A DNA stretch of 64,000 nt from Lytechinus variegatus (Eukaryota > Echinodermata > Echinoidea > Temnopleuroida > Toxopneustidae): NCBI RefSeq assembly GCF_018143015.1, contig NC_054749.1:32172911-32236910 (forward strand), in the 5' to 3' direction. Numbering within the stretch: the stretch's first letter is position 1; every line of letters begins with the position of its first letter. This document shows positions 17,939 to 50,545 of this stretch, piece by piece. Made by a program: the position numbers and the translations under genes. A model generated the notes under the pieces. It searched no databases. It saw only the letters and a program-made list of their open reading frames with translations, and was not told the DNA's origin.

Positions 17939-19690
17939 TTGCAAATATCGTCAAAATTCAAGATGCTAAAGAGGCATGGATATATTAAGAAAGGGAAGGG
18001 GTTCATGGGGGTACCACATCATGTGGTTAAAAGGCGGAAAATTAGACAGGAGACAGAAGAGCCAATAAATGATCCAGTGTCGGTAAGGAAGCTCCAGGCT
18101 GGAATTTCTGATCCCAGTCCCACATGTGCAGCTTTGGAGGGCAGCTATCTCATTGATGGTGGACTGCTGGCAGCTGTTCTTGGCAATGCTCATTTATGTC
18201 CAGGAGGTAAGTTTTATGGAGTTTTCAACTATTCATTATTCTCTTTGTAGTATGATTTACCAATTTTCTTGCTGTTTTATCTTGATTTATTCATTTGGCT
18301 CATCTCTCTTCAAAGTCTACAGAGGTGATTATATTTTCATATTCATAATACTTTAACTTACAAACATTTTATTTCATATTACTTTGGGACATCATACATG
18401 CTAGTATTTATACAAGGCTTTTTTTTCTCCTCTTGCTTTCTAGGTTTGTGAGCAACAAATGTGTGAAGCCGCCCAACACCTCCGGAGGGCTGCAATGGAG
18501 GAAGATAGCAGCATCAAGGAGGGGAATGTGGTGGAAGTGTCATTTGATGGGACATGGCATAGGCGTGGCCATCGTTCCAATCATGGGGTGGCATTGGTAA
18601 TTTCTATGGATACTCGGGAGGTATTAGATTTTGAATTTTTATCTAAGATATGTAAGGAGTGTGATGTTAGGAAGGATTGGGATAGGGAAGGGGAAGAATA
18701 CAAGGAATGGTGGGAGGGTCATGAAGAAGAATGCTTAGCTTATCATGAGGTAAGTAGTGGGCTGATGGAGGTTGAAGCAGCAGCTAGAATGTGGGGTAGG
18801 TCTATAGATAAACATAATCTTAGGTATAAATATATGGTAAGTGACTGGGACAGTAAATCATTTAATAAAGTTAGGGAAATATATGGTACATGTGAAAATA
18901 AATTGGTAGAAAAGTTAGATTGTGTAGGTCATGTGGGGAAAAGGATGTCTGATGCATTAGACAAAGTTCGTAAAGATATAAAGAAGGGTGAGAAATTGTC
19001 AGATGGGGAGTCAGTGGGGGGAGGTAAGGGTAGGCTAACAGGGACTAAAGATACAGGGGCAATAGGTAGGTTAAGTAAGTTTTATAGGAATGCAGTTCGT
19101 AGTAATTGTAAAGTAGTGATTAAGGATAAGGTCAAGATTAAGGCAGTTGAGAAAATGTAAAGGGCACTTCTTTATCATGAAGTCACACTTCCTGATAATA
19201 AAGTGCATCATCAGTACTGCCCAGACAGCGAATGGTGTGAGTACAAAAACAAAGGCAGTATGGTAGACAAAGACGGTGTTTTTTGATCTACTCTTGCCTA
19301 CAATTCAAGCGACTTAGTGCTCCAGACCTCATAAAAAGGTGCCTCCCAGGGTACACCCAAAATCAGATTGATCAAGTTTAAATTCTCTCATCTGGAAAAG
19401 GTGTCCCAAACACCTGTGGAGAGGTCCACGTGTTATTCGCATAGCAACAAATCTTTCCGTTCTGGCGTTCTACTGTGTCGCAGAGCAAAGTCGCAACAGA
19501 CTATTTCAAGCCCTGAATCTCAAAATGAGTGCTCATATCATGTCATCATGGCAAAGAAAGGATAGTGCAAGATTAATGAATTTAGAAAAAAGGGCAAGGG
19601 AGGTAGAAAACAAGAAAAAGGAAGCAAGTAGGGTTAGGAAATCAAGACAAGGAGATGCATGTGGAATGGGTGGGGGTTGCGTATGAATCT
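17939..19690 (+). pseudogene. Mutator-like transposase, nearly full length, broken
   Basis: The N-terminal segment (17963-18207, basic KKGKGF...KRRKIR) is followed by a GTAAGT donor and, after about 230 bp, a TTTCTAG acceptor. The main frame then begins at 18459. That part has an FDGTWHRRG motif with a candidate first catalytic Asp, a conserved WDREGEEYKEWWEGHEEEC block, and a VSDWDSK motif with a candidate second Asp. Translation stops at 19158, but homology continues through broken frames (HQYCP, WCEYK and a degenerate SGKGVPNTCGEVHVLF) to about 19690. The intron does not rejoin the frames as read. This family occurs widely in invertebrate genomes and is usually annotated as Mutator-like. 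It is inactive here. Three more remnants lie at 20250, 26228 and 32326. Confidence 0.75.
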
Positions 19691-24509: not shown

Positions 24510-25956
24510 CAGGGATTGTACTCACCAATATCAGGACTCGTCAAGGTGTCTCCATGATGACTAAGGCAATCAATTTTTTCCGGCTGTTTTTCTCCATCGA
24601 GGTCTTAGGACAATTGTTCATGTTCACCAATGAATATGCACGTCAACACATTCATGAAAAACCTTCGTATGCAACATCTTCTGGTGACTGGAAACCAGTG
24701 GGAGTAGAGGAGATGGAACTTTGCGGACTGCTTATTTACATGGGACTTGTACCTTTACCTGATTTAGAATTGTATTGTAGTACATCTTTTCCGTATCATG
24801 GTACCTGGGCGCAGGCATATTTAACTAAGGATAGGCTAAAAGGGATTTTGGGTTTTCTCAAAATTACGGACCCAAATACTGAAGGTGATAAGGACCCCCC
24901 CCTACATAAGGTAAATTATCTCCTGAAGCATATGAAAGAAACTTGTAAACAACTTTATCAACCTGGGGAACATATTAGTACAGATGAAAGGATGGTAAAA
25001 TCAAAGGGAAGGTTCGGTTTTATTCAGTATATTAGGGACAAACCTACTAAGTGGGGGTTCAAGTTGTGGGTGCTGGCCGACTCCTCAAATGCATATACAT
25101 ACGATTTTGATGTTTACGTTGGACGACGACGTACGGTATCTAGTAAACATGGATTAGGTTATAATGTAGTCATGGAACTATGAAAGGATCTTCATCACCA
25201 AGGGAAGGGTTTTCCGAAAGAATTCAAGGACACAATGAAACAGTGGGAGAAAGACACAGAAAGGGGTGAAATGAGATGGATTAGGGATGAAGATGTTGTT
25301 GTAATTCAATGGAAGGATAAGAAAGTAATAAGTGTTATGTCCAGCTACCATCCTGGAATAAGAAGACCCAATGTACGAGGAATACCAGGGCAAATGGGGA
25401 ACACAAAGAAATTAAAGTGAAACAACCAATCGCTTTTGCAGCTTATAACAAATATATGGGGGGTGTTGACAAATCTGATCAGTTGATAGGAAATTATAAT
25501 GTTCTACGAAAGACAAATAAGTATTGGAAGACCCTTTTCTATCATATGGTAGATATAGCTGTAGTTAACTCCTATATTTAATTCTGTGAGATGAAGAAAC
25601 TTCATCCCGGTGTTTCAGGCTTTGAGCGGAAGTCCCTCTTTCTTCAGCGGCAGTTCATGGAAGAGCTGGCAATGCAACTGGGTGGTATAAAGAAGGATGA
25701 TCCAGTTCCATTGTACAGACCTGTAACTCCTGTTGCTTCTAAAAGTGGGGCTCATGATGCAACATCAGCTATGCACCTTCCCATTGAAGATCCCGAGGGT
25801 CGTAGGAGAACATGTAAGGTATGCTATGCGTCCAAGAGTAATAATGCCAATAAATCCAAAATGATATGCTCTGTCTGTAAAGTACACCTCTGCACCAATA
25901 GAAATTGCTTCTATGATTTCCACACCAACCCAAAATATTCCTCTTCTCTCCAATAA
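24510..25956 (+). pseudogene. piggyBac-like transposase with internal deletion
   Basis: The reading runs DPGIVLTN, then AINFFRLFF...FTNEYARQHI, GLLIYMGL, KGILGFLKI, and ISTDERMVKSKGR with the first Asp of the piggyBac DDD triad. It continues with FIQYIRDKPTKWGFKLWVLAD and LGYNVVMEL, where a stop falls at 25181-25183. It resumes at once with HHQGKGFPKEF, then VDKSDQL in MGGVDKSDQL (25459-25479, the third Asp), and ends with a Cys-rich zinc-binding tail (CKVC...CSVC...LCTNRNC, about 25813-25911) and a stop at 25954-25956. Compared with the family, about 40 residues around the second Asp (the DNF/W-F-TS motif) are missing, so it cannot be catalytic. A further stop lies at 25418-25420 and another at 25579-25581. 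Confidence 0.8.
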
Positions 25957-32325: not shown

Positions 32326-33000
32326 TTGCAGATCTGCGAGGAGCTGAAGGCTGCCGGAAGGAAAGTGCAGAAGGTTTTGGAGCACAACCCAGACGCTGAT
32401 AGGAATGGAGTTTTGGATGTGGCAGTGTCGTATGATGGTACGTGGCATAAAAGGGGGTTTACTTCTAATCATGGGGTGGGGGTAGTAATTAGTATGGATA
32501 CTGGGGAAGTGTTAGATAGGGTAGTAGTTTCAAAAGTGTGTCCGGAATGTCAATATAGAAATAATTGGGATAGGGAGGGGGATGAATATAAAACTTGGTG
32601 GGATGGGCATAAGGATGGTTGTTTAGGGAAGTATAAAGGGAGAAGTGGGAAAATGGAGGTGGAAGCGGCACAGGAAATGTGGAAAAGATTGATTAATTTA
32701 CACAATTTAAGATATAAATATGTTGTTTGCGACGAGGATAGCTCCACATTCAAGAATATTGAAGATGTATATTTTGACAATAAAGACAAACCGGGACCAA
32801 ATATGAATGTGTGACCATGTTGAGAAAAGAATGTTTAAACGGTTAGATAATTTTAGAGAAAAAAACAAGCTCTCTACAGAAGATAGGCAAGAATTATTAA
32901 ATAAGGGAAGGGTAGGGGGTGAAGGTAGGTTATGGGGAACAACAACAGACACTGGGACAGTAGGGAAACGTAAGTTATATTTTAGTTCTAGACATTCTTC
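32326..33000 (+). pseudogene. Mutator-like transposase, N-terminal half
   Basis: After a TTGCAG acceptor-like site the frame reads ICEELKAAGRKVQ, then VSYDGTWHKRGFTSNHGVG (first catalytic-type Asp), NNWDREGDEYKTWWDGHKDGC, and YKYVVCDEDSSTF (second Asp). A frameshift near 32810 moves to CDHVEKRMFKRLDNF and GGEGRLWGTTTDTGTVGKRK, after which homology ends. The C-terminal half is absent. It is about as diverged from the 17.9-kb copy as two members of one family would be. Confidence 0.72.
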
Positions 33001-33830: not shown

Positions 33831-35603
33831 TATTTTGGGCACAGTAATACAAATCTATCTGCGAATAGAAATACAATTTTGTCCGTATCATTTTCTTCTC
33901 AGCGTATTTCACCCGAGGTTTACAACTACCATGCCTACCACATAGATTTCTCACCGAATGATGAAGCCTCATTCATCGCAACCATTCACCTGGATCTGCA
34001 CTTGGAAAACATTATTTGACAAGTGGCTTGGATAGCTTGAACGCTCCTTCATACATCACTTGGCATGTGAAGCACACATTCCCTTCATGTGGAAGAGAAC
34101 ACTCTTTAAATATAAAAATTGAATAGGGACAAAGTACTAGACTAATAAGATGAGAAAAATTAGGATAAAACTAAAGCCTGCATAAATGAAATTTATGTTT
34201 CTTATACAAAATGTAACAATTTCACAATTCATAACCTTTTTCTTTTGAAATACTGGAGTAAAGGAACATTTCTGAAAACCTGACCATATCAGAAAAGTTT
34301 TGTTTATAAATAAAGTGATCTTATTTCTATTTATCATCTATTGCTATTTCATTTCTTAAGTAAAAAGTATAATAAGGAATGGCTGCCATTCTCATTTGCA
34401 ATGAGGTGAATTTCAGATTAAAAAAAAAACTTTGTTGAAATTACAGATATTTATAACAAAATCATCAGTAAAACCTGTCTGTTTGCTACCTATAATGATT
34501 TTTTTGATAATTCAATTGTAGACCCCCCCCAGTCTAATGGTTATTTTAGAGGTGAAGAACACAACTATGACATGTGTGACTCTTTAGGCATACAATTCAG
34601 AATTCCTTTAGAGCTTGTCTGTTACAGCATGCAAGACAGCATTGACTTATCTGAAAACAATTTAAAAAAAAAAAGATGAAGTTGTAATTCCAAGAACTGA
34701 ATCAAAAATAAATATCCGCATGTCACATTTACACACTTGACAGAACAGTAAGTATGTTTAGTGGTAACTGCATATTTACAGATGTGTACCTCTTCCAACT
34801 GAGATACATGTACGTGTGTCTTGAAAGTGGAGTTGGTGGTCATCCTGTTTCGGATCAGAAGAATGAATTCTAGTATTCCATACTGGTGACTCTCAGAGTT
34901 GACATTGACATATGCTCCCTGATACATCAGAGGAAAATCCCCAGTGCTACAGAACCAAAAGATAACAAAAAAGGAAAAATTACTTCACAAGTCACACCAA
35001 TTTTTCCCATAAACTGAATCACCTTAATCTCTTATATGCCAAATGTAATATTGAGCCTTGGGCATCTTTTTAGACCAAATGGGCAACATCAGAGAACATG
35101 GTTCAAATTTATGAAGAACCTTAGATATTGATGTTGGGTCAAAAACCCACCCCATGATTTCATGTACAACTCCAATAATGCTTTGTCAATGTAAATATAT
35201 CTTCCTTTTTTTTACTTTCTGCGAGATTAATTACAATTTCATACTTATTCTGATAGAAATATTGTCATCCAACACATCTAATTTTATAAAAGTCATTGCA
35301 ATTTTTTTTAAATTTGCTGTTTTGAGAGTAACAAGTCATAAAACATTGGCTCAACTTCTTACACATTGTAAAAAAAATTATGCAAAAAGTTTTTTTTTTT
35401 TTTTTGGGGGGGGGGGGCGAGGCAGATGCTACCCCCCCTTCCTAGTGCATGAACATTTAAATTTTTCACACAACACTATTCTTATGTTGTCCATTAAGAA
35501 CAAACACAGAATTTATTAATTTATTTCAAATAGTAAATCTTGATCATTTTATTGATGGCTGTGCCATCTTTGAACATACTCAACTCAGAGGGTTGAAGTG
35601 AAT

Positions 35604-35684
35604 GTCTTGTATCAGAATATTACTATAAGACATCAATATATTCAGACAAGAGGTGTCAGAGAAGTAACTCATCATGTACAAGAC
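35604..35684 (-). ncRNA. Box C/D snoRNA, family B copy 1
   Basis: On the minus strand, the terminal stem GTCTTGTA/TACAAGAC encloses box C ATGATGA, D' CTGA, C' TTGATGT and D CTGA. The antisense element before D' contains TCTGACACCTC, complementary to the conserved 28S segment GAGGUGUCAGA, with pairing extending on both sides. The likely role is to guide 2'-O-methylation of 28S rRNA, predicted at the G just before AGGUGUC. It lies in the intron between exons 35850-35983 and 34800-34918. Confidence 0.85.
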
Positions 35685-36419
35685 AAATATCAAACAATAA
35701 AATGATATCAGTTAGCTGAAAACATAATTTACCATCCAAAATCCTTTTCATACGTTTTTGTACTTTGTGTACCTGTCACAAGAATTAGATTAAGGGAAAA
35801 CTTAAGGAGTTTACAATATATCTACTAGAGGGGATGGTATTATACTAACCTATGAAGATTTACTGGATGTTGTGAAAATGCTTGTGTTGGTAAATGTTCG
35901 TTCTTCAAAACCTTCACGACCTCCAAATCATGTAAGAACAGCAGCAGTGGAAGGCAATACTAACAAACATGAATGACATTCATCTGATGCGAGGGAAAGG
36001 CAGGGGAAAAAGTAAGAATAAAATGTATTACAAATTTGACCCCCATTCAATTTAAGTAATTGTGTTATTACTATAACTGAAAATTTTGACAATTTCTGAA
36101 ACAATAGACAATCTAAAATTTGCTGTGATCAATTCAATCAATCGCCAATCATCGTAATCACATCAAGAGTTTTTTTTGAAGAAAAAACACATCACATATA
36201 AAATTTTCAAATCACAGACTTTTGGTTAAACAAAACAAACAATATATGCTATACTTCACTGCAATCTTACAACTTTCTAATATTACAGATTGATAAAAAA
36301 AGTCTTTGGTAAGTCCAAACTAAAAAAAAAAGTATAATATATATAAAAACATGACCTTTTAAATGCCATTTTTTAGTGTCAATGATTGCAACATGATAGG
36401 AAGAATCTAGTATTAGATT

Positions 36420-36490
36420 TTGTTGATCAGGGTTGGATTGAACCATCATTTATTATTCAGACGGCAATTCCTGGGTCATCATATCAACAA
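36420..36490 (-). ncRNA. Box C/D snoRNA, family A copy 1
   Basis: On the minus strand the unit reads terminal stem TTGTTGA, box C ATGATGA, D' CTGA, C' ATGATGG, D CTGA and closing stem TCAACAA, 71 nt in all. The element before D (CAATCCAAC) is complementary to 28S GUUGGAUUG, just before the A-loop. By the +5 rule the target is the first G of GGAUUG. The D' element (GGAATTGCCGT) has no target that I recognise. Confidence 0.88.
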
Positions 36491-37318
36491 CTATCCACTC
36501 TAATATCAATTGAAACATCAAATTTATACACCAAATCTTACAAAATCAAGCTATTTAACAACTCTCTGAAAATTCACAGGCTAAGAGCCCTCATTCTCTA
36601 ACAAACGTACGCTTGATCACTCCAAATTTGACGTAAGGGAGGGGGAGGTGAGACCATGTTTGCAACCTTTGAATTATTTTAAAGAGCTTGTACTCACAAA
36701 AAAATACTCACCTTTCACATGATGGCCCGATTCTACACTGATGGATCATCAACTGGATCACATGGATGAAAATAAACCTCACTTGGCTGAACCATAATCA
36801 AACATGAGAACTTATGAATCATTGACAAGATTGCATGGATGAAAATAGAGCTCTGTCAGCTGTAAGGAAAGCAAGAATAAAGGACAGTGAATGTGATGAA
36901 AAGAATTCAAAGAAATGTAGGGGATTATCCTTCTTTGGGTCATTGGGTTAATTAATTCTGTAATCTGGTAGTCACTGAGACAATTACGTACCTATTTCAT
37001 CTACCTTGTCAAAAGATCAATCATGTAATATATGCCAATATCTATTTTCATTCCAATTACTATACATAGATCACTTTGACGTGATTGATCTATAGGTAAA
37101 CTTGCATTAGTTGAATAGTGGTCTAAGTCAAAGCACTTTGTGTTGCATGATTTTAAATTGATTTTGGGAGCTGACATTGACTTGCGATCAATTGCAGGTT
37201 TCTTGCAACACTCCCATTAGTCAAACTTCTTCTCAACAGAATTGATTTCAGTGGTCCATGAAGATTTGACCGATGCAAAATTACCTGTATCTTATTTTTC
37301 ATCTATTTTCTAGAGAGA

Positions 37319-37386
37319 TGTTGATCAGGGTTGGATTGAACCATCATTATTATTCAGACGGCAATTCCTGGGTCATCATTTCAACA
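37319..37386 (-). ncRNA. Box C/D snoRNA, family A copy 2
   Basis: The boxes and both guide elements match copy 1. The terminal stem is TGTTGA/TCAACA. It lies in the intron between exons 37816-37890 and 36712-36786. Confidence 0.87.
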
Positions 37387-37528
37387 AACAATTCCATATC
37401 TACAAAGTTATTTCATTGGTGAAAACTAACCATCTTTGTGAATCACCATGTTTACCCCATTCTGTACAAATTCACTTCCTGGCCAATCCAAATCGCAGGT
37501 TAACTCATAGTCATTTTCAATGATTATA

Positions 37529-37700
37529 GGGGCCCATTTCATAAAGCTGTTTGCAAGTTAAGAGTGACTTTAAGAATGGCTGGTGATCCTTTCTTGTGGT
37601 AAATGATATTCACCATTAAATGTTCATCAGTGATTATTTAGTGCGTAAGAAAAGTTCACCAGTCGCTCTATACTTACAAACAGCTTAATGAAACACCCAC
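37529..37700. mobile_element. Foldback MITE in host-gene intron
   Basis: Ends CATTTCATAAAGCTGTTTGCAAG and CTTACAAACAGCTTAATGAAAC are imperfect inverted repeats. A diverged relative lies at 42300-42460. Confidence 0.65.
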
Positions 37701-38449
37701 CAGGTTTTTATTAACACATTACCAGTATTTTTTTTCTTTTCCATTGACATTCAGGTATTCTAAAACTGCATACATTTACTACTGGAGTCAAAGAATTAAA
37801 GATCCATTTCCTCACCTGTCAAGGCCAGTTGAGAAATGATGAACATCAAATGGATTGGATGGAAGAGGGGTGAATGAATGCCTTGATTAGCTGAAACAAT
37901 AGCAAGAACAAGGAAAAGGATTGTTTCAATATGGGGCTATTCCATATAACGATCAACCTTTTTGTACATCCGACCCCCCACTGTCTCAAGTTTTAATTTA
38001 CTTTATAAACTGACCAAATCATGGTCCTTTGAGAACATTACAGACTGTCAAAAGAACCAGAAATCAGAGACAGATAATTTTATTAAGGTCCCACATATAG
38101 GGGGCAAGACGAACATATCGGGTGATTTCAAGTCTGGTGCTGGCCTTGGTGTTGAAATTTGGATTGTTTCCCCTAGCTCCAAAACTTATTCAGAGCTTGT
38201 AAAACTAATCCAGATCACATTATTGCACATCTCAACAACTAGTGAGTGACTTCTCGGGACCATCTTCATTCTATGTTTGGTGTTATAATCGTGTAAAAAT
38301 TGACCTAACACCAACACCAAAAGGTCGACAGTGAACATGAAATCACCCATTATATGGAACTGACCTATGGGAAAATGGGGCCAATATCAATCAAAACATA
38401 TACTATAAATCAACAGTTGTCTTTGAGTCATGTGAGCTGAGTAATTGTC

Positions 38450-38516
38450 GTTGATCAGGGTTGGATTGAACCATCACTTATTATTCAGACGGCAATTCCT
38501 GGGTCATCATATCAAC
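38450..38516 (-). ncRNA. Box C/D snoRNA, family A copy 3
   Basis: Box C ATGATGA, D' CTGA, C' GTGATGG, D CTGA and stem GTTGA/TCAAC are intact, and the guide elements equal copy 1. It lies in the intron between exons 39619-39672 and 37816-37890. Confidence 0.87.
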
Positions 38517-38713
38517 AACTTCTCACAAGTTCTCACATAGGGATGCCAGTTAGAATTGATCAGAGGGCCTGAAAATAACCTAGAATACAATATTTTGTAC
38601 ACAAAAATGCTAAAACTATGGCCTGAAAATAAATTGTCAGATCCTGAATTCAGGCTTTTGCCTGAAAACTGGTTTCCCTGCTCACAGAATGAGCCACCAT
38701 TTGCTAGTCAACA

Positions 38714-39292
38714 TTAAAGGTCAAGTCCAGCTCAGAAAATTGTTGATTTGAATCAACAGAGAAAAATCAAACACAAATGCTGAAAATTGTATCAAAATCA
38801 GATGTAAAATAAGTTATGACATTTCAAAGTTACACTTATTTTTCACAAAATTGTTATATGAACGAGTCAGTTACATCCAAACGATAGTCGATGATGTCAT
38901 TCACTCACTATTTCTTTTGTTTTGTTTTCAATTTTTACGAATTTGACAATTAGGACCTCATTGCCTGAACCACAAAAGGTTAAAATAGTGGAATTCCATG
39001 TGTTCAGGGAGGAATGAAATTATATTTCACATGACAATGACGAGAAAATCAAAATATTACATATTTCATATAATAAAATACAAAAGAAATAGTGAGAGAG
39101 TGATGTCAGTTTTCTCATTTGTATACCGACCGAGATGTGCATATAACTGTTTTGTGAAATGAAGCGAAACTTTAAAATGTCGGAACTTTCTTATTTTACA
39201 TTCGATTTTGATGAAATTTTCAGCGTTATGCTTGTTGGATTTTTCTCTTTTTATTCAAATCAAGTTTTTGTTGGGGTGGACTTGTCCTTTAA
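38714..39292. mobile_element. TTAA-type non-autonomous DNA transposon, copy 1
   Basis: TTAA duplications at 38714-38717 and 39289-39292 flank inverted ends AGGTCAAGTCCA and (reverse-complemented) AGGACAAGTCCA. The element is colinear with 51959-52534. TTAA targets are typical of piggyBac and Kolobok. No coding sequence. Confidence 0.8.
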
Positions 39293-39905
39293 CTAATTAA
39301 TGTCATTCTTTAGTGTTTGTAAATTTAACCCCCAATGCTGGGCTATTTTGTTGTTACCGTTGACTGCATGATCATGGCAAAAATTCACATGCATATTGTC
39401 CATGGCATAATCTGCAAAACTGGAAAGTAAAACTTTTCTTATCAACTATGTCAATTTATGCATAAATCAAAGGTTTACTCTCATCACCTATATTCGACCA
39501 TAAATACTGTTTTGTTTACAGGCTCTTTGTACGAGTCTTACAAAATCTTGTATCAACATTTTTCTATAAATTGTGATTTTTAAAAAATTTCTTACATATT
39601 TCTTTGTTTTCTTCTCACCTTTGACCATCAGAATTCAATGGCCTTGGAACCAGATGATGAACTCGGCTACTACTGCACAAAGATGAAGGGGGTGATATCC
39701 AGGCACTGGAAAAGGGAAAAACAAAATAAAATTATAAAATATGAGTATACAGATATGAGGAATATGAAAGACTTATTTTACCCAGGGAGTCACTTAAGTT
39801 CTGAAAACTGTTCTCCAAGCGGGCCCTGCTTAACATGATGTCATTATTACCCCGGCTTTAGCAGACCAACCAAGATATTTGTCTTTTCAGTTGCTACATG
39901 ATTTG

Positions 39906-39976
39906 TTGTTGATCAGGATTGGATTGAACCATCATTTTCATTCAGACGGCAATTCCTTAAAACATCATATCAACAA
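39906..39976 (-). ncRNA. Box C/D snoRNA, family A copy 4 (diverged)
   Basis: The terminal stem (TTGTTGA/TCAACAA) and D' and D boxes are kept, but box C reads ATGATGT, and the guide before D has a C-to-T change that still allows G-U pairing. It may be weakly processed or on its way to a pseudogene. Confidence 0.75.
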
Positions 39977-40125
39977 CTAATCCCCCTACAAAAGCTACAA
40001 GAGAATATGATTTTAATTGATGTGTAGTCTTCATCCTTTCCACATTACAAGGCTGTTGGATGTTCTGTATTTATCTAGAACTTTTTATTGGAAGTCATCT
40101 GTTAGTGCACAATTAATAATCGTAG

Positions 40126-40336
40126 GAGGCGCGATAGCTCAGTCGGTAGAGCAGGAGATTCGTATTCCGGTGAAAGGGGTTCGATTCCCACTTGGTGCGC
40201 TAGTGCCATTTGGCAAGGCATTAATTCTCAGTACCAGGTCCTTCGGAGAGGACCTTAAGCCGTCGGACCTCTGGTTGCTTGCTTAAAAGCATTCATGCTT
40301 TCTTAGCAATCAGGTAAAAAATCACCACCACCACAT
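40126..40336 (+). mobile_element. tRNA-derived SINE
   Basis: A tRNA-like head (40128-40200) has a promoter A box TAGCTCAGTCGGTAGAGC and a B box GGGTTCGATTCCC. The body continues past the tRNA end with CCAGGTCCTTCGGAGAGGACCTTAAG-like sequence and ends in an ACC-rich tail. Poor acceptor-stem pairing and the long tail argue against a functional tRNA gene. It sits antisense in a host-gene intron. Confidence 0.8.
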
Positions 40337-40719
40337 TGAAGTTCGTAAAATATGGTTTTGGATGGTCATGAATTTCAATCATTTTTCAAATCCAAACAGC
40401 CTACAATCTGACTTCTTAGGCTAAATAGATCAAAACAAGAACGAGATCACCACACAGACATACCATGTCACCATGATCACGTTATTCCGGAGCAATCGTC
40501 AAATCTCCCAAAGTACAGTTCCATGTCAAAGCATCCCTAAAAGAATTAAAAAATACATATTTTACATGAAAATCAGAATCATGAAATTTCTTATGACACT
40601 TGAATAATCTCTTTAGTGGGTATCTGTGCAACATTGTAATTGGGAGTTACGTTGCGTCATAGCACAGAAGATTATATGTGAGCTATTGCATAACAGTGAT
40701 TACCTGGTATCGATGTGCC

Positions 40720-40800
40720 ATTAGATTCAGTAGTAAGCAAATGTTTTCTCATAAAAATGAATTTCGATCCGCTGAATTTACTCATCACAATCACATGGCA
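40720..40800 (-). ncRNA. Possible box C/D snoRNA (orphan)
   Basis: On the minus strand GTGATGA (box C) and CTGA (box D) are about 50 nt apart, bracketed by a broken stem (CCAT..GAT / ATC..ATGG). The element before D, ATTTGCTTACTA, resembles the complement of the 28S GUAGUAGCAAAU segment with a one-base bulge. Internal boxes are unclear. Its position alone in a host-gene intron fits the one-per-intron pattern. Confidence 0.4.
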
Positions 40801-41561
40801 GTCACCTGTATATATCACTAAAAGTATTCTGTTTTTGTTACAAAATACACAAGAGGAAGTCATATCTCATTAAAAAAACTTTCTATGATGTTAAAAATTT
40901 TAGCAAGATTGTGCACAGCAGACTGGAAAGTTCTTCTATTTATTTTATTTCACTCGTAGATTCATGTATTCAAAGGGGCAGTCAACCCTTGTAAAAATAA
41001 GCAAAACATTTGAATTCGACTATAAAACCCTTCAAAGAAAAACAAGAGTATTAATTTTTCAAAGTTAGATTTTTATGACTTCAGAAGGTTACATATTTAC
41101 ATTTCAACAATGCTATAATGGAATCTTCATTCCCATGCTTTTCTGATATTCCTTTTATTTATGAAAACTAAGTAGACTTGGGGATTTCCCAATCAACTAA
41201 TAGTACTTACTACTTACCAGGTTTAATTAAAGTTTTTTCAGAATTTCTGGTCCCTTTCTTCCCCAGACTGCCTGACCCATGCCCTGTAGATTTCTGGTGG
41301 AAAGGAACTTGATCATGCTTTGGAAAGACTTTAATCTGGTAGCTTCAGCATTGATTGATGACTCATAAAAAAGAGCGCCCCCACGTGGCAGCTCAGTTTG
41401 AAGTCTATCTTGCTTAGTCTCGCCTGCAATAAGGAAACAGTCAATACTTGATCACTCTGATCCAACAAGAAGTAATTCATCAAGAAATGGTCATCAGCTT
41501 TGCATTCCTTGCAGCTCTATAGACATCCCCCCTCCCTCATTTTTTTTCTCTTTGGGTTATT

Positions 41562-41642
41562 GTCTCGTATCAGAATATTACTATAAGACATCAATGTATT
41601 CAGACAAGAGGTGTCAGAGAAGTAACTCATCATGTACAAGAC
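41562..41642 (-). ncRNA. Box C/D snoRNA, family B copy 2
   Basis: The length and boxes match copy 1 at 35604-35684 with only a few substitutions (for example GTCTCGTA in place of GTCTTGTA in the + strand arm). The 28S-complementary element is unchanged. It lies in the intron between exons 41854-41900 and 41218-41283. Confidence 0.85.
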
Positions 41643-42299
41643 ATTCCAAAGATTTTTTTTCCCGTACCATTTATATATTTCACTATCACCATGTACATGT
41701 ATGATGCAGCATTTTTTATAGATCTAAAATTTCTGTTTGTAGTTTAGTCACCACCCTTTGTCCTTTGCATCAAAAATCTTTGTCATGGTCCAAGAGAGTT
41801 TCCATATGAAAGCTTATCAATACTATGCAAGATTTGATGATATAACTACATACCTCTCACAATGTCCTGATCTCCTTGCAGAACATCTTGAGACTCTCAC
41901 CTTGACAAATAAAGGATAAAATATTAAAGAATTGATTTAGATGCTTCATCACAGAAGCTGTCCATGTAGGAAATTAATCTACATTGACATTTGTCAGTGG
42001 TATTCACTTTAATTGAAATAATAAGGCTTGGTCTACATTTTATCACCACTAAAATCCCTGCATCATATCAGCTGGGATTAGGACATGATGTGAAGTCATA
42101 AATACCTCAGGTGAGTAAGGATGTCTCCAACAAACATAGTTTGTCAGCTCCGTCTTGAAACTAAATAAAAGGTCATCATCACTGGCATATGACTCACACA
42201 TCATGAGGGTAAGATCAGCAATTTTCTAGAAATTTTTGTTGTCTTGTCCTTCTTTATCCCCAGTATCGATTATGATGGCAAAGTAAATTTTCTACTAAT

Positions 42300-42460
42300 G
42301 GGCGGTTTCAAAAAGCAGTTTGCAATTTACACATCAACTTTACGCATGACTGGTGACCCTCTTTGTGCCTAATGATGTACATATCACTACTTATACGACT
42401 TGGCGTCTCAGAACATGCTTCAGTCGTGCAGAACTTTACAAATAGCTATATGAAACGCCA
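42300..42460. mobile_element. Foldback MITE
   Basis: The left arm GGCGGTTTCAAAAAGCAGTTTG pairs with a right arm ending CTATATGAAACGCC. It is related to 37529-37700. Confidence 0.55.
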
Positions 42461-42979
42461 GGTTCATATTGCATAGCATTTGTAGTTAAAGAAAATAAAC
42501 TTCAATTTGATTTTCCATATCTTGAGGCCTGTTTTTTTAAATATAACATCAGGAGACAACAACGTGCTATCACAACAAACATGGAAAACTTGCTTATAAT
42601 ACTTGCTGCTGCTGGGGAAGGTCTAGCCAGATTAGACACAATACTTTAGGTAACCCAACCATTGTGTGTGATCAATATGGCCAAGTTGGATCGGCTGAGC
42701 CATGTTGCTATGGTGCTTAAAATAAACACAAACAACTACAAGTCTTTGTGGAACATTCCCACAAGCTGCCAAGAGTTTGCACTTGACAAAATAAACAGAG
42801 AAACCATAAACTTCACTCACCAATCTCATTCTCTCGAGAGAAATCAGTTAAATTATACACATAAAACATGGGATCCACGAGTAGGTTGCTGAAATGAATA
42901 AGCAAAAAGTTGTCCAATGCTTCATAAATGTTAAAGTGGTAAAATGATGATTATAATGATAATAATAATGCTAGGCAGA

Positions 42980-44515
42980 CAAGCCTTGAAATAAGCACCT
43001 GTTAGCCGGGGGCAATTTTTTTTTTAAATTGCCCCCAGCTCACGGGCTTTTTACAGGAACCGGGGGCAATTTTCTGGAACCAGGGGCAATTTAAAAAAAT
43101 ATATATAACGGTGAACCACACCGCAAATTTGTTTATAGTAAGCGCAGCTCCTGCAATTTTTTAATTAGTAAATGAATAGCATATGCTAAGTATTAGGCTT
43201 ATTCAAACATTTAAGAAATCAGATTTAAATGTTTAAGTGTTTTGACACCCTCACTCCACATCCCCTTTACAACCACACACACATGGGCTTATTTATTTTT
43301 CGTCTTTAATGAACCATGATCAATGAACCCCCCCCAAAAAAAAATCTAAATAAATTAATGAAATAAAAATTTAAAAAAAAGAGAGAGAGATGGAGAAAGA
43401 GAGAATTCAGATCAAATAATAAATTTACAAAAAAAAATAATTTTTAAGGCTTTTTTTATGGTTTGAATCATGGGAGTGGGTGAGTGTTTGTGTGTGATTG
43501 TGGCTGTGAGGTGCACTTGGATTGCATATACGAAATCAATAAATAACTCAGTCTATTCAAATTCCAGCACATAGCCACAGGCTATGTACATGTACATGTA
43601 TTGTAGGTTCACGTACCTTAAGTTTTTCACAAGTTATTTGAAAACGCAGATCTCCACAGAAAATGCCTTTCATTCTGGGAGAGTCTGAATTCGGTGAAAA
43701 TGTATTCATTAATAACTTAAATATTCATCACAATGAAGAAATCATAAAGTTTTTTGACAGTTTTCAAAAATTAACATGAAATCTAAACTCTATCTCAAAC
43801 GGAAAATCACCATCACTTAGGCCATTACTGATAGAATTCTCACCCAGAGCTCTGGCAGACATGAGCTCAAAACTTGCTTGCTAACACCACACTCAAGTGC
43901 ATGCGGCTTCCTCCTTATTTTTTTTTATAGATTATTTATTGTCTGATATTTACCCTTCTCCAGGAAAGAAATTAAAAAGCTACAATTCACAACTATAAGC
44001 TAAGTTATTTTGGATTATTAAGGCTCCGTTTTGACAAGCACGGTAGGCGACTATGAGGATAAAAGACTTGCACATCGTATGTGCTGTGAACAGGGATTTA
44101 TCTCCTGTGCAATTCAAATTACTATATCACAGAATTGTGATATCCCGACTGGAAATGTGTGCATTAGAAATTGCACATGGTGAAGTATGGAAAAACCGCT
44201 ACCGGAAGAACGCGCGCATATGTATTACAGGAAAAAAAGACGGACGTAGCTCACTTTTTATGGTACAGAGAAAAAGACGCACTTGGCAATTTTAAACTGT
44301 GTTTATCGTAAATTGAAAGTTATTTGATTTTGGCTTTACAGATATTTAAATTACATGTATTATATGGCTTCACTGCTCACTCACGGCGGGCGCAATTACC
44401 TGGAAAATATTTGCGTCCAGTCGTCAAAATTTTGATGATTTTGGGGCTTCATGGGCGCAATTGATGGCGTTATGAGCGCGAATTTGCGCTCAGCGCCCAC
44501 TTATTTCAAGGCTTG
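42980..44515. mobile_element. Non-autonomous hAT-type element, 1.5 kb
   Basis: The perfect 16-bp inverted ends CAAGCCTTGAAATAAG and CTTATTTCAAGGCTTG are flanked by the exact 8-bp duplication TAGGCAGA (42972-42979 and 44516-44523). An 8-bp duplication with ends starting CA is typical of hAT. The interior has repeated GGGGGCAATTTT phrases near the left end and related GGGCGCAATT phrases near the right. No transposase is recognised. Confidence 0.85.
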
Positions 44516-44687
44516 TAGGCAGAAGTATGAAGGAAGGGTCAAAGGGAAGATTGTACAGAAGTCAGAAATTAAAACCCCCTACTCCCATTGATATGATTAC
44601 AGCACCCAATTAATCTTCAGACTGACATTTTATTATACATTATCATTTTGATCATTGAGTATTAGTGATTTCAATCCAGCAAACTTT

Positions 44688-44842
44688 CCTCTCAGACAAA
44701 TGCCTCGAAACTGTCATCAATAATTGTTAGCTGTTACATGCAGCCACACGATGTAATGCAGTATGACATAAAACATATCACAATGCCACCGTTAAAGCCA
44801 CATGCAGCCAACGTCAGCCTCGTCATCGAATCATCACCGAGG
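44688..44842 (-). ncRNA. SNORD15: U15 (SNORD15) snoRNA, copy 1
   Basis: On the minus strand, terminal stem CCTC/GAGG, box C GTGATGA, guide GATGACGAGG, D' CTGA, and far downstream C' TTGATGA, guide CGAGGCATTTG and D CTGA. The two guides are complementary to adjacent, overlapping parts of one 28S segment, CAAAUGCCUCG and CCUCGUCAUC. This is the hallmark of U15, and the total of 155 nt also fits. In mammals U15 sits in ribosomal protein S3 introns; here it is in the snoRNA host gene. Confidence 0.92.
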
Positions 44843-46253
44843 ATCTTGTCAGGAAAATTCATTCAGCTTGTTATCAGAAGGAAAACTGCTACTTTTTGGC
44901 ATTCTCCAATCAGACCATGGACAAATAACAGACATGGCTTCAACTGAGAGCAATTTTTTAACTTAAATCAGACATATTGCACTATTTTTTTTGCAGGTAG
45001 TACATGTAGTAGTTGGAAAGTAGGACACCAATCGCAATCAGTTGTGATCAGTTGAGGCTTCCAGTTGTGGGGTTTTTTTATATGGGGCCAACTTCATGGC
45101 CCTGTAATGCAATAGCTTTGCATTTATTGTAATGCTGATTTTTTTTAAAGAATTGATTAAATTTGATCACTATGTACAATATATCATATAGATTGATTAC
45201 AAAGCTTTGTGTTACAGGCCCAAAATCAAATTTAGATATTTACTTACTCCGCACTTTCGTGTCTTTTCCTCTCAGCCTCCATGAAATAATAGCTGGCCTT
45301 CTTCACCTATACAAGGGACGAGACACACAAAACATGACAGATAAATGAATTTATAAATAATCACAAAATATTGTTTGATTTTAATCAAGTCAACTCCAGC
45401 ACAATGTTGAGTGAAAAATCAAATTATGCTGGAAATTTCATATGCCTTAACACAGTGATATGCCAAAGCACGAGTTTTCTTTGGTATAAACTTTCTCGGG
45501 ATTTGAAAATAAATATAATTTTGGAATTCAATAGCTTAATATCAGTGAAAACGGCTGCAAATATTATAGAATAGATCTTGGCCCCCATATATTGATGTAA
45601 TTGGTCACTACGAAGGACAATTAATGCAACATGCTAAACAATGTAATAATTTTCTTTTTATAAATTCTTTTTATCATTATAAAAATATGATTTTTATAAT
45701 CATAAATGAATATTAATATTGTTCTATTTGCACCCATTATCATCAACATTTAGGCCTGGGACTTTTGGGTATTTTTGTCTTCGGCGCATGAAATATGACT
45801 TGTGGAAAAACCTTGTAGGTGATGTCATTTAGCCACTGCACTGCAAGCAAACTTATGAATGAAATATAGTAAGCATGCGCAGTGGAAGCCTCCATCAAAA
45901 CAAGTCTGCAATACTCTGTCACCTCGTACCAAATTCAACCAAGAATTCCACTTTCCTAAATTTCACATTAATTATGAAAGGTATTCTCAGAGGATCTTTT
46001 TTCCCACCGATACCACACAGGTAAGCAAATTTTGATTACTTCTTGCTTTCTGTCAAAGTCTTACAAAATAGCGTCGATATTACATCGTGTTCGTGAGTTT
46101 GTAGAATCTACCACTACATGCACTAAGTCAATTGATTTCCGGGTAGTTTTGGCTGGCGCTTCGTAAGCTCAAACGGCAAAAGAAACATGGCGACAGGACC
46201 CAGGCTTTAGTCCCAGCCCTATCATCTTTACTGATTTTAATCCAGCAAACTTT

Positions 46254-46408
46254 CCTCTCAGACAAATGCCTCGAAACTGTCATCAAGAATTGTTAGCTGT
46301 TACATGAAGCCACACGATGTAATGCAGTATGACATAAAACATGTCACAATGCCATCGACACGACACCATACGGCCAACATCAGCCTCGTCATCGAATCAT
46401 CACCGAGG
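46254..46408 (-). ncRNA. SNORD15: U15 (SNORD15) snoRNA, copy 2
   Basis: It has the same length, boxes and guide elements as the copy at 44688-44842. Differences cluster in the central part between D' and C', which fits selection on the guides. About 20 bp of flanking intron is also shared, indicating duplication of an exon-plus-intron unit. Confidence 0.92.
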
Positions 46409-47035
46409 ATCTAATCGGGAAAATATTTAAAGCCCTAAACCATAAAGAAAGTTTTAAAGTTGATCAGACCACAAGTGTAACAAATCTAGCTTTGACTGGG
46501 AAATAATTCAAACATTTTAAAATGTAGCCGCCCCCCCCCCCCGGAATATTGCAATGACCTACTTGAAATATGCTATGCAGTGTGAGTACACAAAAAAAAA
46601 TAATAATTTACATATACGCTATTAACTGTGCATTACAATTAAAATATCAGTCTTTAAAACATACAATTTGCCTTGACAAACTCATGCCATAATAATGTCA
46701 AAATTAATATGATGTATCTCTGTCATTTTGCATTTGCATCAGTATGGATGTTATGTGATTGATGAAAATAAGGTTTCAGCTCGAAGATTAATTAGATATA
46801 CCTATGCCTATAATCATAATTCACAATCTAAACTGGTTGTCACTTATTGGCCGCAGCATCTACATGTAGGTAGATATAACTGATCAACTCAGGTTTGATT
46901 AATCTTGAGCCAGGAACATCAGTTGACTAATCTAACCAAACATCAAGAGTTAGAGAATCAAAAACTCTAATACTTACTTTCATACTTCTGTTTCTCTCAG
47001 CCTCCATAAAAGAAAAGATAGCTAGCATTACCATC

Positions 47036-48390
47036 CTGTATTAAAAAAAAAAAAAAATCAATATAGAGGATATGGTAATGTGATAACAAGATTGAATGTC
47101 TACAACACCAATGTCAGTCTTACTGGCAAAAAGAGAAAATAAATGATATAAAACATTACATGTAGGTCCTAAATATTCATTTTTTTTTCAGAATCTTTTC
47201 AGTATATAAAACCATTTGATTACTCAAAATTTTAAACTTATCTTCCAATTGTTTTTTATACTTTTGAATGAGTATTTCTTCCTATGAACCAGAAAATACC
47301 ATTGACTTGCATGCATTATGAAGTCAAAATCTGTTCAATGATGCAACATTTAGAATGTGCAAGAGCACAGGGGTAAGTAGTCTTGGCTCAGGCAAATAAA
47401 GAGAATAGCGCATTGAAGTCTATGTGCTGAACACATAAACTTTTATCTCTTACGAACAGGCGAAAAAGGATTGAAAGCTTAAAACTCTGATTGGCGTTTA
47501 TCCAGACCAACAATGATTACTTCACTTTAGAATGACAAAATATTTTCGATTTCAATTATTAAAGAGTTACTACTGCATGTAGGCCAAGAAGATGGCACAA
47601 ACAGGGGAAAGAGTGCACATGAATTAGAAAGGACTTCCTCTCAGAAAATAATTGGCATCACTGGGGTTGCTTGGCACAAGGGTTTAGGTTGCACAACATA
47701 AAACATGTCCTACTACCCTATAATCACCACGGCTAAAGAAACCTTGTCAGCCATTACACAATTCATCACAGAGGAGTTATTCTTTCTCATTTGCAGTGAT
47801 CACTCTGAGGCAACAAACTATATCATTACAATAATAATTATTCATAATCAAGTCTTCATTTTAGTATTTGTTAAATAATAATTTTTATCTATAAATTGTT
47901 CTTCAAAACAGCATTTTGTAACATCGCCAATCAAAGGTACATTGTACATCATAACGAAGCGATTCAAGGGTCAGACCTTATGTATTTGCTTAGTTGACAA
48001 ACGGATAAGCACGAGATCGGTCTGGTAAGAAACCTTCCTGTTTTCGCCTTTTCATTAACCAATTTTGGAAAACTTCATACGCATTAGTGCTGTTGTCGAT
48101 AGGCCTCATATCGACACTGATGTTGACATACGAAGGATTTTCAATGTTTCCGACATGTCGACATGCACGCACCCACATCGACATGTAAACATAAAATAAA
48201 AAGGGGTCTAGCCTCAAGTCACAAGTGTAAAGCTTAGCTGAAAAGTAAGAAGTATTTATCAACAGTAATTGGCGCGATTAAAAGGTTTATTCAGCTTCGC
48301 GGCGCATTAAATGAAAATAGAATACTTGCGAGCTGCACGGCAGCAGAAATGCGTCAGTGCAGGCCGCCCTTCTCCATGGCGTAGCGGATA
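47036..48390. other. Noncoding, possible first intron of the host gene
   Basis: I find no convincing snoRNA or coding sequence in this stretch. Confidence 0.4.
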
Positions 48391-48815
48391 CAGCGTTTCC
48401 ACTTTCAAGGAAATTACCCGAATTCCGGGAAATCCAGACGTTTTCCAGGTAGGCCTAATTTCCAGGAATGAAAAAATTCCAGGAAATTCGAAAATTACAA
48501 TTAAATATAGCAACTATTAATATTCATGTTAATATATTTACATGATTTTAACCTCCATACATAGCTCAAAATTTTTCGCTCGCGCTCCGCACTCGCATTT
48601 CGTAATGTTGTTCCTATTTTTGAAGAGGGCGAGGACAAAAAAAATGCTAAATTCCCTGATTTTTGCCACCTGGTCCTGTATCAAATTTACACTTGTTGTA
48701 TTATTGCCCGATTTTCGTTAAAAATCAAACTTGAAAATTCCAGGAAATATTTATGAATTTCAGGAAATTTGGAATCCAATTTCGGGAAATTCATTTTGGA
48801 GCTGTGGAAACACTG
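48391..48815. mobile_element. hAT-type MITE, 425 bp
   Basis: The inverted ends CAGCGTTTCCAC and GTGGAAACACTG (11 of 12 pair) are flanked by 8-bp duplications AGCGGATA (48383-48390) and AGCGGATG (48816-48823), one mismatch. The interior is rich in TTCCAGGAAATT-like phrases and contains one copy of the GC-rich CGCTCGCGCTCCGC motif. Confidence 0.8.
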
Positions 48816-49558
48816 AGCGGATGGGCTGCTTTTCACACCACACGAAACGGCAAACGCAACGACACAACTCACAAGTCGACTGAGCTGAGATAAGCCAAAA
48901 TCCAGTGCTCAATCACTCGACTTGAGTGGTTTGACTCATACCTACGTGTATCAAATCGATAACTGAACATATAAAAACTATAAGATTTACTAGATAACAA
49001 GTTGGGATAAAAAGAAGACGGTAAAACAAATGTGAACAAATATTTTTTTTAAGTTACCATCGCATCAGACTTGAAAGTCGTGTTGTCCACGTGCTTGCCT
49101 GCATCGAAAGAGAACGCAATGCGCTTGAGCAAGCCACGCATGCATGGATATGCAACGCAGATTGGTCCCTTACTTTCGGGTTACGTTACATACGTTATGT
49201 ACAGGCCCAATACATATTCCTGAACTGAGAAAGGTTACCATTCTGTAAACTTTGGACAAATGAAATGGAGTAAACAAGCAAAGACCCGGGAAGGTTTGGT
49301 ATATATTTCTAAATTATTTCATTAATTCAATGAATGACATTTATTTTTAAGGGGGGGGGGGCATCAGCTTTGATTAAGCATGGATGGACCAAGCTTGTGG
49401 TTTTCTGTGATTAGGTTCGTGATTTCTCCCGGATATCTAGTTCACTAATTTCAAAGAACTGAGCAGCCTACATGTACCGGTACGTATACGACTACGAGAG
49501 CGATTGCATGAAAGGATCTTTCCAAGGACCGTCTTTCATGTCGCCCATCTTTTATGAT
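48816..49558. other. Noncoding, possible 5' region of the snoRNA host gene
   Basis: A minus-strand donor-like site (GATG|GTAACT, at 49057-49058) could end a first exon. No promoter can be assigned. Confidence 0.35.
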
Positions 49559-50545
49559 ACGCTATAACTTATAATTCATGGAGGGCAGCTAACAGATGCA
49601 TTCAATGTGAAGACAGGAGTAAGACAAGGGTGTCTCCTCTCACCCTTTCTCTTCTTAGTAAGTTAGTTATTGGCCATTGACTGGATTATGAAGTCCACCA
49701 CTGGAATCCAGACCAGTGGACTCTGGCAGCAACTGGATGACCTTGATTTTGCAGATGACATCGCCTTGCTCTCACACACTCACAAGCAGATGCAAGATAA
49801 AACCGACATCATTAGAGATAAGTCAGGTCGCCTTGGACTAAATGTTAACCAAACAAAGAGCAAGATTTTAAGAATCAATTCCTCAAATCAATCTGCCATC
49901 AGGTTGGAAGATAAATCACTGGAAGAGGTTGAAAGCTTTACATATCTGGGAAGTAACGTGGATAAACAAGGTGGGACAGATGCAGATGTAAGAATAAGGA
50001 TAGGGAAAGCAAGGGGAGCATTCCATCAGCTAAATAACATATGGCGATCTACAAAACTACCAAGGAACATTAAAATACGCATCTTCAACACAGTTGTCAA
50101 GCCGGTCCTCCTATATGGTGCAGAAACATGGAGAACTGCTGTTGCCATTATTAGGAAAATACAGACCTTCATCAATACTTGTCTAAGGCGTATCAGGATT
50201 TTCTGGCCTAAGGTAATCAGTAACCAAGACTTGTGGGAGATTGCTCATCAGCAACCCATTGAGGCAGAGCTCTTGCAGAGACGATGGCGGTGGATTGGCC
50301 ACACCCTACGGAAACCAATGCCTAATATAACTAGACAGGCATTGACTTGGAATCCTAAAGGAAGAGGGGAAGGCCTTGTAACTCATGGCGCAGAGACATG
50401 GAGGCAGATGCTAAGAGGATGGGCTGCACATGGAAAGAACTGGAGACGCTGGCTCAGGACCGCTCTGCCTGGAGGAACTTGGTTGACGGCCTATGTCCCA
50501 GGAGGGGCGATAGGCGTAAGTAAGAAAGTAAGTAATAACTTATAA
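49559..50545 (+). pseudogene. Non-LTR retrotransposon fragment, reverse-transcriptase C-terminal half
   Basis: A first frame (about 49580-49660) reads FNVKTGVRQGCLLSPFLFLVS. After a frameshift the frame at 49670-50545 continues with [13 protein letters not shown] (catalytic ADD motif), [12 protein letters not shown] and [11 protein letters not shown], then a thumb-like [14 protein letters not shown] region, YGAETW, and a C-terminal [13 protein letters not shown] segment. It ends in GTAAGTAAGAAAGTAAGT repeats. This order is typical of RTE/CFDP2-like elements; clade assignment is uncertain. The element is 5'-truncated and frameshifted, so inactive. Confidence 0.8.

Follow-up and report, generated by a model that had tools for sequence, protein, structure and literature searches.

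The window analysed here, 64,000 nt of the sea urchin Lytechinus variegatus (contig NC_054749.1, positions 32,172,911 to 32,236,910), contains on its minus strand a row of box C/D small nucleolar RNAs (snoRNAs) that alternate with short exon-like segments. We propose, with a probability of about 85%, that this locus belongs to the Uhg/SNHG kind of noncoding snoRNA host genes and, judging from the sequence, that a single spliced transcript would carry the whole row. From 46.4 to 35.6 kb of the window, the row comprises eight box C/D snoRNAs that fall into three families: two copies of U15, two copies of a U60/snoR1-like RNA, and four copies of a 71-nt family. Beyond these eight, there are three candidates: a snoRNA whose guide would address the U21 site, an orphan snoRNA (X), and a decayed U15.

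A minus-strand array of box C/D snoRNAs

Both strands of the region 33.5-49.5 kb were scanned for a C box, a CTGA, and a closing stem, with a cut-off score of 12. The minus strand has 12 places that reach the cut-off and the plus strand has none, the mean of 60 Markov-1 shuffles being 0.57 (Markov-1 resampling was also used below for the exon signal, for the paralogy of exons and relic, and for the comparison with RPS3 exons). The 12 places comprise the eight units, orphan X, the U15 relic, and two more stretches: 47848-47747, which overlaps the U15 relic, and 33979-33803, which has an imperfect C box and is not counted as a snoRNA. The remaining 48 kb of the window contain, on both strands, four places scoring at least 12 (2, 1, 0, and 1), which exceeds the shuffle background. 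A perfect C box occurs nine times on the minus strand of the region, never on its plus strand, and once in the rest of the window (both strands). The plus strand of a 20-kb locus on contig C13 that carries other copies of the 71-nt family, where no snoRNA is expected, has three places, and a perfect C box in none of them. Two of the four places in the rest of the window, both on the plus strand of positions 1-33499, score at least 16, and one of these two has a perfect C box; they might represent a further snoRNA or an inverted repeat.

The search for direct repeats recovered the U15 pair, an 88-nt pair (the U60/snoR1-like RNA), and the four-copy 71-nt family. The eight units with ordered boxes, all on the minus strand, that an initial annotation of this DNA had described are present according to the repeats and the scan (12 places vs. 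0); the scans tested C, D, and the closing stem, and boxes D' and C' were placed by eye. Its three families, U15 together with two multi-copy families, were likewise borne out by full-length SNORD15 matches, by the repeat families, and by the guides of known families. The whole 64-kb window has no Rfam match at gathering scores, and an Rfam-based annotation would miss these snoRNAs because none of them reaches its gathering score. Copy numbers in the genome were obtained by DNA similarity in the 870-Mb assembly (33 contigs, C1, C13, and C17 among them) and are lower bounds for repeats and large families.

U15, its relic, and the RPS3 locus

U15 (SNORD15) copy 1 (46253-46408, minus strand) matches RF00067 with 58.6 bits (E 2.3e-10) and copy 2 (44687-44842, minus strand) with 57.0 bits (E 5.6e-10), both over the full length and both below the gathering score of 75. 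The two copies share 91% identity, and the direct repeat that contains them is 90% identical over 197 nt. The U15 guide GAGGCAUUUG sits before D and is complementary to 28S CAAAUGCCUC, the D guide of copy 1 pairing with 28S CAAATGCCTC, and the guides are intact in both copies. All guide duplexes were computed on two stand-in rRNA sequences, L002 and L003, and not on the 18S and 28S of the species itself. U15 would direct the methylation of the A of CCAAAUGCCUC in 28S. Two U15 matches were found genome-wide, both at this locus, a result that rests on DNA similarity and not on a covariance search.

The third copy (47633-47778, minus strand) is a decayed U15-like relic that lies upstream of the first exon-like segment. 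It retains the C box GTGATGA, the D box CTGA, a closing stem as in U15, and an exact 14-nt core, GACATGTTTTATGT, in common with U15 copy 1; its guides are lost, and the Rfam search of the relic gave no SNORD15 match. Its local alignment was matched by 2/400 shuffles against copy 1 and by 5/400 against copy 2.

Chicken U15 resides in introns 4, 5, and 6 of RPS3, according to the accessible sections of PMC2653536, and U15 is not mentioned in those of PMC3412847. The RPS3 gene of the sea urchin was found on contig C1, where four exons were located and 16 kb around them were fetched. Neither strand of these 16 kb has a scan place scoring at least 12 or contains GAGGCATTTGTCTGA or GGCATTTG; there are three occurrences of GATGACGAG.

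Exon-like segments and the proposed noncoding host

Ten exon-like segments, all on the minus strand, were delimited with the help of approximate splice-site matrices. Seven of them have a splice-site score: Ea (46978-47035; 17.5), Ec (42821-42888; 16.4), Ed (41854-41900; 15.9), Ee (41218-41423; 22.8, the top of the list), Eg (39619-39705; 22.1), Eh (37816-37890; 19.8), and Ei (36712-36859; 22.5), the last one with an internal 53-nt duplication that is 74% identical. The other three were placed by eye, i.e., Eb (45248-45306) and Ef (40464-40536), which fall below the list cut-off, and Ej (35850-35983), which is not in the splice-site list. One candidate snoRNA is present in every one of the nine gaps that separate the ten segments, and there is another beyond each end. 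No exon was placed ahead of the relic, and the acceptor at 34945, after the last U60-like copy, was chosen by eye. Among the exons listed initially, 46978-47035, 45248-45306, 41854-41900, and 40464-40536 fit splice sites (the second and the fourth by eye), and 41218-41283 had to be redrawn, splice-site scoring favoring 41423 or 41293 as its acceptor. Ea and Eb are paralogous (0/300 shuffles gave a similarity as good), as are the U15 units behind them, and therefore a unit of exon plus snoRNA has probably been duplicated.

The exon signal is moderate and weaker than the snoRNA signal. Donors with a pair score of at least 15 number 14 on the minus strand and five on the plus strand (6.1 in shuffles); the pairs scoring at least 17 are 10 and four (2.2 in shuffles), and those scoring at least 22 are three and none (0.02 in shuffles).

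Upstream of the array there is a CpG-rich stretch (47751-49400, no strand assigned; CpG observed/expected 0.82-1.46 in 400-bp windows), which at 48-49 kb is a plausible promoter. Of the 14 1-kb bins between 34 and 48 kb, 12 have a ratio of 0.15-0.65, and the remaining two have 0.84 and 0.71. Several pyrimidine tracts, candidates for a 5' terminal oligopyrimidine (TOP) start, are found at 47-50.4 kb, including TTCTCTTTC at 49114. The stretch also contains, at 49088, one of the six CACGTG motifs of the window, to which no significance is attached; E-boxes are reported at Drosophila Uhg genes in the accessible sections of PMC4430873. The proposal of a noncoding host with about one snoRNA per intron, already put forward in the initial annotation, is supported by the strand bias, the alternation of exons and snoRNAs, the lack of a recognizable protein, and the upstream CpG-rich stretch. 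A reverse-transcriptase-like open reading frame (ORF) on the plus strand (49670-50545; RVT_1 27.8 bits, cut-off 29.6; DUF6451) is located just upstream of the proposed promoter.

The sequence itself shows the anatomy, the strand, the number of copies, the similarity to U15, and the conservation of the guides. Transcription, splicing, processing, and methylation, which we infer, would proceed as follows. RNA polymerase II would start in the CpG-rich stretch at about 48-49 kb and proceed along the minus strand as far as about 35 kb, or further. The short exons would be joined by splicing into an RNA that encodes no known protein, and every excised intron would hold one box C/D snoRNA, protected by small nucleolar ribonucleoprotein (snoRNP) proteins bound to the C/D kink-turn. 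The snoRNAs would be released by debranching followed by exonuclease trimming, and the mature RNAs would guide 2'-O-methylation.

Several observations weigh against this proposal. The gene model takes seven of the 14 minus-strand donors scoring at least 15, including all three at 22 or more, the remaining exons Eb, Ef, and Ej being placed by eye; moreover, the exons were picked with the snoRNA positions known, and equally good pairs stay unused, e.g., 43851-43617 and 41029-40806. The snoRNA-to-acceptor distances range from 139 to 1798 nt, the usual distance in mammals being about 70-80 nt. High CpG values also occur in the first 15 kb of the window. All the Rfam scores quoted come from a search with an E-value threshold and are below gathering. 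When each guide was compared with 12 shuffled guides, only the D guide of U15 copy 1 and the D' guide to the U21 site beat the best of them, and the D guide of U15 copy 2 and the guides of the U60-like RNA and the 71-nt family were not above shuffled guides; for the 71-nt D guide, the best place on the stand-in rRNAs is in the small subunit (SSU) rRNA and not in the A-loop. Most guides are at chance level; the guide argument rests on their identity with the guides of known families and not on pairing strength. Finally, with the exons as drawn here, on which the reading frames depend, an ATG frame of 75 codons, the longest one, runs through Ea-Eb-Ec-Ed.

The row of snoRNAs could also belong to two or more adjacent host transcripts, e.g., a U15 unit at 47-44.6 kb and a second gene starting at about 43 kb. 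The CpG-richer bin 44001-45000 (0.84) lies between these two units, and the gap from U15 copy 2 to Ec measures 1.8 kb; however, the bins on either side are CpG-poor (0.45 and 0.44), and the strand and the alternation of exons and snoRNAs run on through the gap, so that we regard such a division as unlikely.

If the host encoded a protein or a small peptide, it would be an ordinary coding host, e.g., a decayed copy of RPS3, the gene in which chicken U15 resides (PMC2653536, accessible sections). Besides the 75-codon frame, there is an open stretch of 79 codons in Ed-Ee, with its first Met at residue 51, and Eb reads VKKASYYFMEAE, superficially like VRRACYGVLRFIMES of RPS3. Nevertheless, neither of these two longest open stretches has a Pfam match, the longest ATG frames in the other two frames have 41 and 33 codons, and similarity to RPS3 exons is at chance, with 295/300 shuffles as good for Ea, 200/300 for Eb, and 24/300 for Eg, the best of the ten (the edges of Ef and Ej were one base off in this comparison; the reading frames were computed with the corrected edges). 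The RPS3 origin of Eb, attractive by eye, was rejected on these shuffles, and a coding host appears improbable. That the locus is a mostly dead cluster of snoRNA pseudogenes scattered by duplication, with no functioning host, is hardly credible in spite of the U15 relic and of the C box TGATGT that one 71-nt copy out of the four of the window carries, given that both U15 copies retain intact guides and that the sole U15 and U60-like copies found by DNA similarity are these.

The U60/snoR1-like pair and two further candidates

The noncoding host proposed here would also be the source of the U60/snoR1-like RNA, which by DNA similarity has two matches genome-wide, both at this locus. Copy 1 (41563-41641, minus strand) matches snoR1 at 41567-41637 with 29.0 bits (E 0.0013 on 1.6 kb; gathering 49), and its D' guide is directed to 28S AGAGGTGTCAGA. 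Copy 2 (35605-35683, minus strand), recognized by repeat and scan, matches SNORD60 at 35607-35680 with 29.6 bits (gathering 42). As these gathering scores are not reached, the RNA is called U60/snoR1-like only. Its D' guide is complementary to 28S GAGGUGUCAGA. Its D' spacer exceeds that of SNORD60 by two nt and corresponds to the spacer of plant snoR1; therefore, the N+5 rule places the predicted mark two nt upstream of the vertebrate U60 site, on the first G of GAGGUGUCAG in 28S. In the stand-in 28S, a G that lies 22 nt downstream is found only for the second or the third G of GAGG; the chicken sites are G3825 for U60 and G3847 for snR38 (PMC2653536, accessible sections).

The new candidate in the gap between Ec and Ed (42102-42188, minus strand) is a box C/D RNA with a 12-bp D' guide to 28S CCGTCTTGAAAC, a stretch present in both stand-in 28S sequences. 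It has a scan score of 10.5, below the cut-off of 12, and its match to snoZ161_228 (23.1 bits) is below the gathering score of 45. The RNA would modify the G of CCCGUCUUGAAAC (CCCGUCUUG), presumably the U21 site, an assignment that rests partly on presumed 28S positions. This G is 10 nt away from an A in AAACACGG that we take to be the U18 site. The spacing agrees with that of G1253 (U21) and A1263 (U18) in chicken 28S (PMC2653536, accessible sections). The snR39B site was considered as the target and dropped on recounting.

The second new candidate, orphan X (40716-40799, minus strand), lies in the gap between Ee and Ef. It has a C box GTGATGA, a D box CTGA, the stem TGCCAT/ATGGCA, and a scan score of 17.5; it has no Rfam match, and its best rRNA target is not above shuffled guides.

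The 71-nt family and its two guides

The four copies of the window, all on the minus strand, are copy 1 (39908-39978), copy 2 (38450-38520), copy 3 (37319-37389), and copy 4 (36422-36492). Copy 1, which has the C box TGATGT, may be weak (repeat family, scan 19.5), and copy 4 was recognized by repeat family and scan. Copy 2 scores 25.0 bits with SNORD69 and 25.5 with SNORD36, and copy 3 scores 22.4 and 28.4, respectively, all below gathering. The best scores of the family are 28.4 for SNORD36, 25.0 for SNORD69, and 18.0 for SNORD49, with gathering scores of 30, 37, and 37; still other Rfam families match as well, below gathering. Since the SNORD69 gathering score is missed, the family is called SNORD69-like only. 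SNORD36 gives the best Rfam score, but no guide common to the printed alignment could be seen by eye.

Eight matches were found genome-wide: the four of the window, two on C17, and two on C13. In copy 3, 17 nt of the D guide, GUUCAAUCCAACCCUGA, are those of the SNORD69 consensus, and these letters are found in six of the eight genomic copies, one copy having a C to T change and another an A to G change. Via this guide, the RNA would modify the SNORD69 site in the A-loop of 28S (first G of GG). The D' core AGGAATTGCCGTCTGA is the same in 8/8 copies, and the C box TGATGT occurs in two of them. The D' guide AGGAAUUGCCGUC is one base off AGGAAGUGCCGUC of nematode ceN22 and Plasmodium snoR28; put differently, the U49-type D' guide AGGAAGUGCCGU, which we take to be that of human U49, has one base changed in 8/8 copies, and the SNORD49 match stays at 18.0 bits vs. 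a gathering score of 37.

The ceN22-type guide fits 28S UCGGCUCUUCCU, whose C lies at a distance of 86 nt from the U60 site of L003, which is also the spacing of chicken U49; likewise, the first G of GG in the A-loop is 124 nt from the U60 site on L003, which equals the spacing of chicken HBII-210. In the accessible sections of PMC2653536, these chicken sites are at 3911 (U49) and 3949 (HBII-210), the U60 site being G3825. On L002, the distance from the A-loop to the U60 site is far longer, so that the spacing comparison rests on L003. For the urchin D' guide with its altered base, the best pairing is found with 18S GCGGTAATTCCA of L002, where a G-U pair falls on the methylated base; L003 is divergent at this stretch. 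As the altered base improves the 18S pairing, the D' guide would be a U49 guide that has either been weakened or changed its target, acting on the U49 site of 28S (C of UCGGCUCUUCC) or on the U of GCGGUAAUUCC in 18S, respectively. Its earlier interpretation as simply the HBII-135 18S guide was amended after the match to the ceN22 and snoR28 guides.

The closing stem of the family is 91% paired (44/500 shuffles as high) and shows one compensatory change (69/500). When the partner is slid by +3, the covariation score is higher with 68% paired, and the covariation is only suggestive.

The C17 copies (L014/L015; L014 6677-6958) are preceded, on the same strand, by an ORF resembling ornithine decarboxylase (Orn_Arg_deC_N, E 3e-15), which is about 1.8 kb from the nearer copy, and they may lie inside an ornithine decarboxylase gene. 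On C13 (32382303-32383822, minus strand), two further related box C/D-like RNAs with the core AAGAATCGCTGTTCATGA and the C box TGATGT are placed between two 71-nt copies. In the window, the gap of copy 1 contains a tRNA-like stretch on the plus strand (40129-40199; 20.7 bits, gathering 29), perhaps a short interspersed nuclear element (SINE).

Surroundings of the locus

The rest of the window contains two Mutator-like transposase fragments (18459-19160 and 32326-32814; Pfam PF20700), a transposase fragment DDE_Tnp_1_7 (24554-25183), presumably of the piggyBac type, and an ORF of 459 aa for an inward rectifier potassium channel (61217-62596; IRK, IRK_C).

Comparison with known snoRNA host genes

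Insects and vertebrates provide the best-known examples of noncoding genes that serve as dedicated snoRNA hosts, and among the literature matches listed there was no title on sea urchin snoRNA hosts. The layout is already known from flies and vertebrates; the surprise lies only in the set of guide RNAs found here, and the points of interest are where U15 is hosted and the RNA with two guides. A clear echinoderm case with U15 outside RPS3 would help to establish when, in the deuterostomes, snoRNAs moved from one host to another, and the locus yields methylation predictions that can be checked by RiboMeth-seq, among them that of a retargeted guide. We tentatively suggest, as a composite conjecture that may well fail, that U15 left RPS3 in this lineage, the sole source of U15 and of the U60-like RNA being now a dedicated noncoding host, and that the 71-nt family, at three loci, joins the SNORD69 D guide with a U49-type D' guide that one base, fixed in 8/8 copies, would have turned from the 28S U49 site to the 18S 530 loop.

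The Drosophila Uhg genes carry another snoRNA set, and their transcription has been shown, whereas that of the urchin locus is predicted. No open frame is recognizable in them, and their introns, up to 16 in number, contain one snoRNA each (accessible sections of PMC4430873); the urchin locus is predicted to share with Uhg1-5, 7, and 8 both the lack of a recognizable frame and the layout of one snoRNA per intron.

The U60/snoR1-like RNA has in common with SNORD60, plant snoR1, and yeast snR48 the guide GACACCUC beside D', and it differs from vertebrate U60 in its plant snoR1 spacing and hence in the nucleotide predicted. Vertebrate UHG/SNHG1 and GAS5 are noncoding spliced hosts with box C/D snoRNAs in their introns, of a different set; in contrast with vertebrate SNHG genes, the urchin snoRNAs are further from the acceptor and the 5' TOP start is only a candidate. 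With the U15 hosted by vertebrate RPS3, the urchin locus shares the RNA and its 28S site (for chicken, accessible sections of PMC2653536), but here U15 is in an apparently noncoding host, and none was found at the RPS3 locus of the genome. The 71-nt family resembles SNORD69 (HBII-210) in a D guide identical to the consensus over 17 nt, and U49/ceN22 in a D' guide that is one base apart, the best stand-in 28S site of the ceN22-type guide being at the chicken U49 spacing. In chicken, these two guides are kept in separate RNAs, U49 in the mRNA CR391615 and HBII-210 in GNL3 (PMC2653536, accessible sections), whereas in the sea urchin a single RNA carries both.

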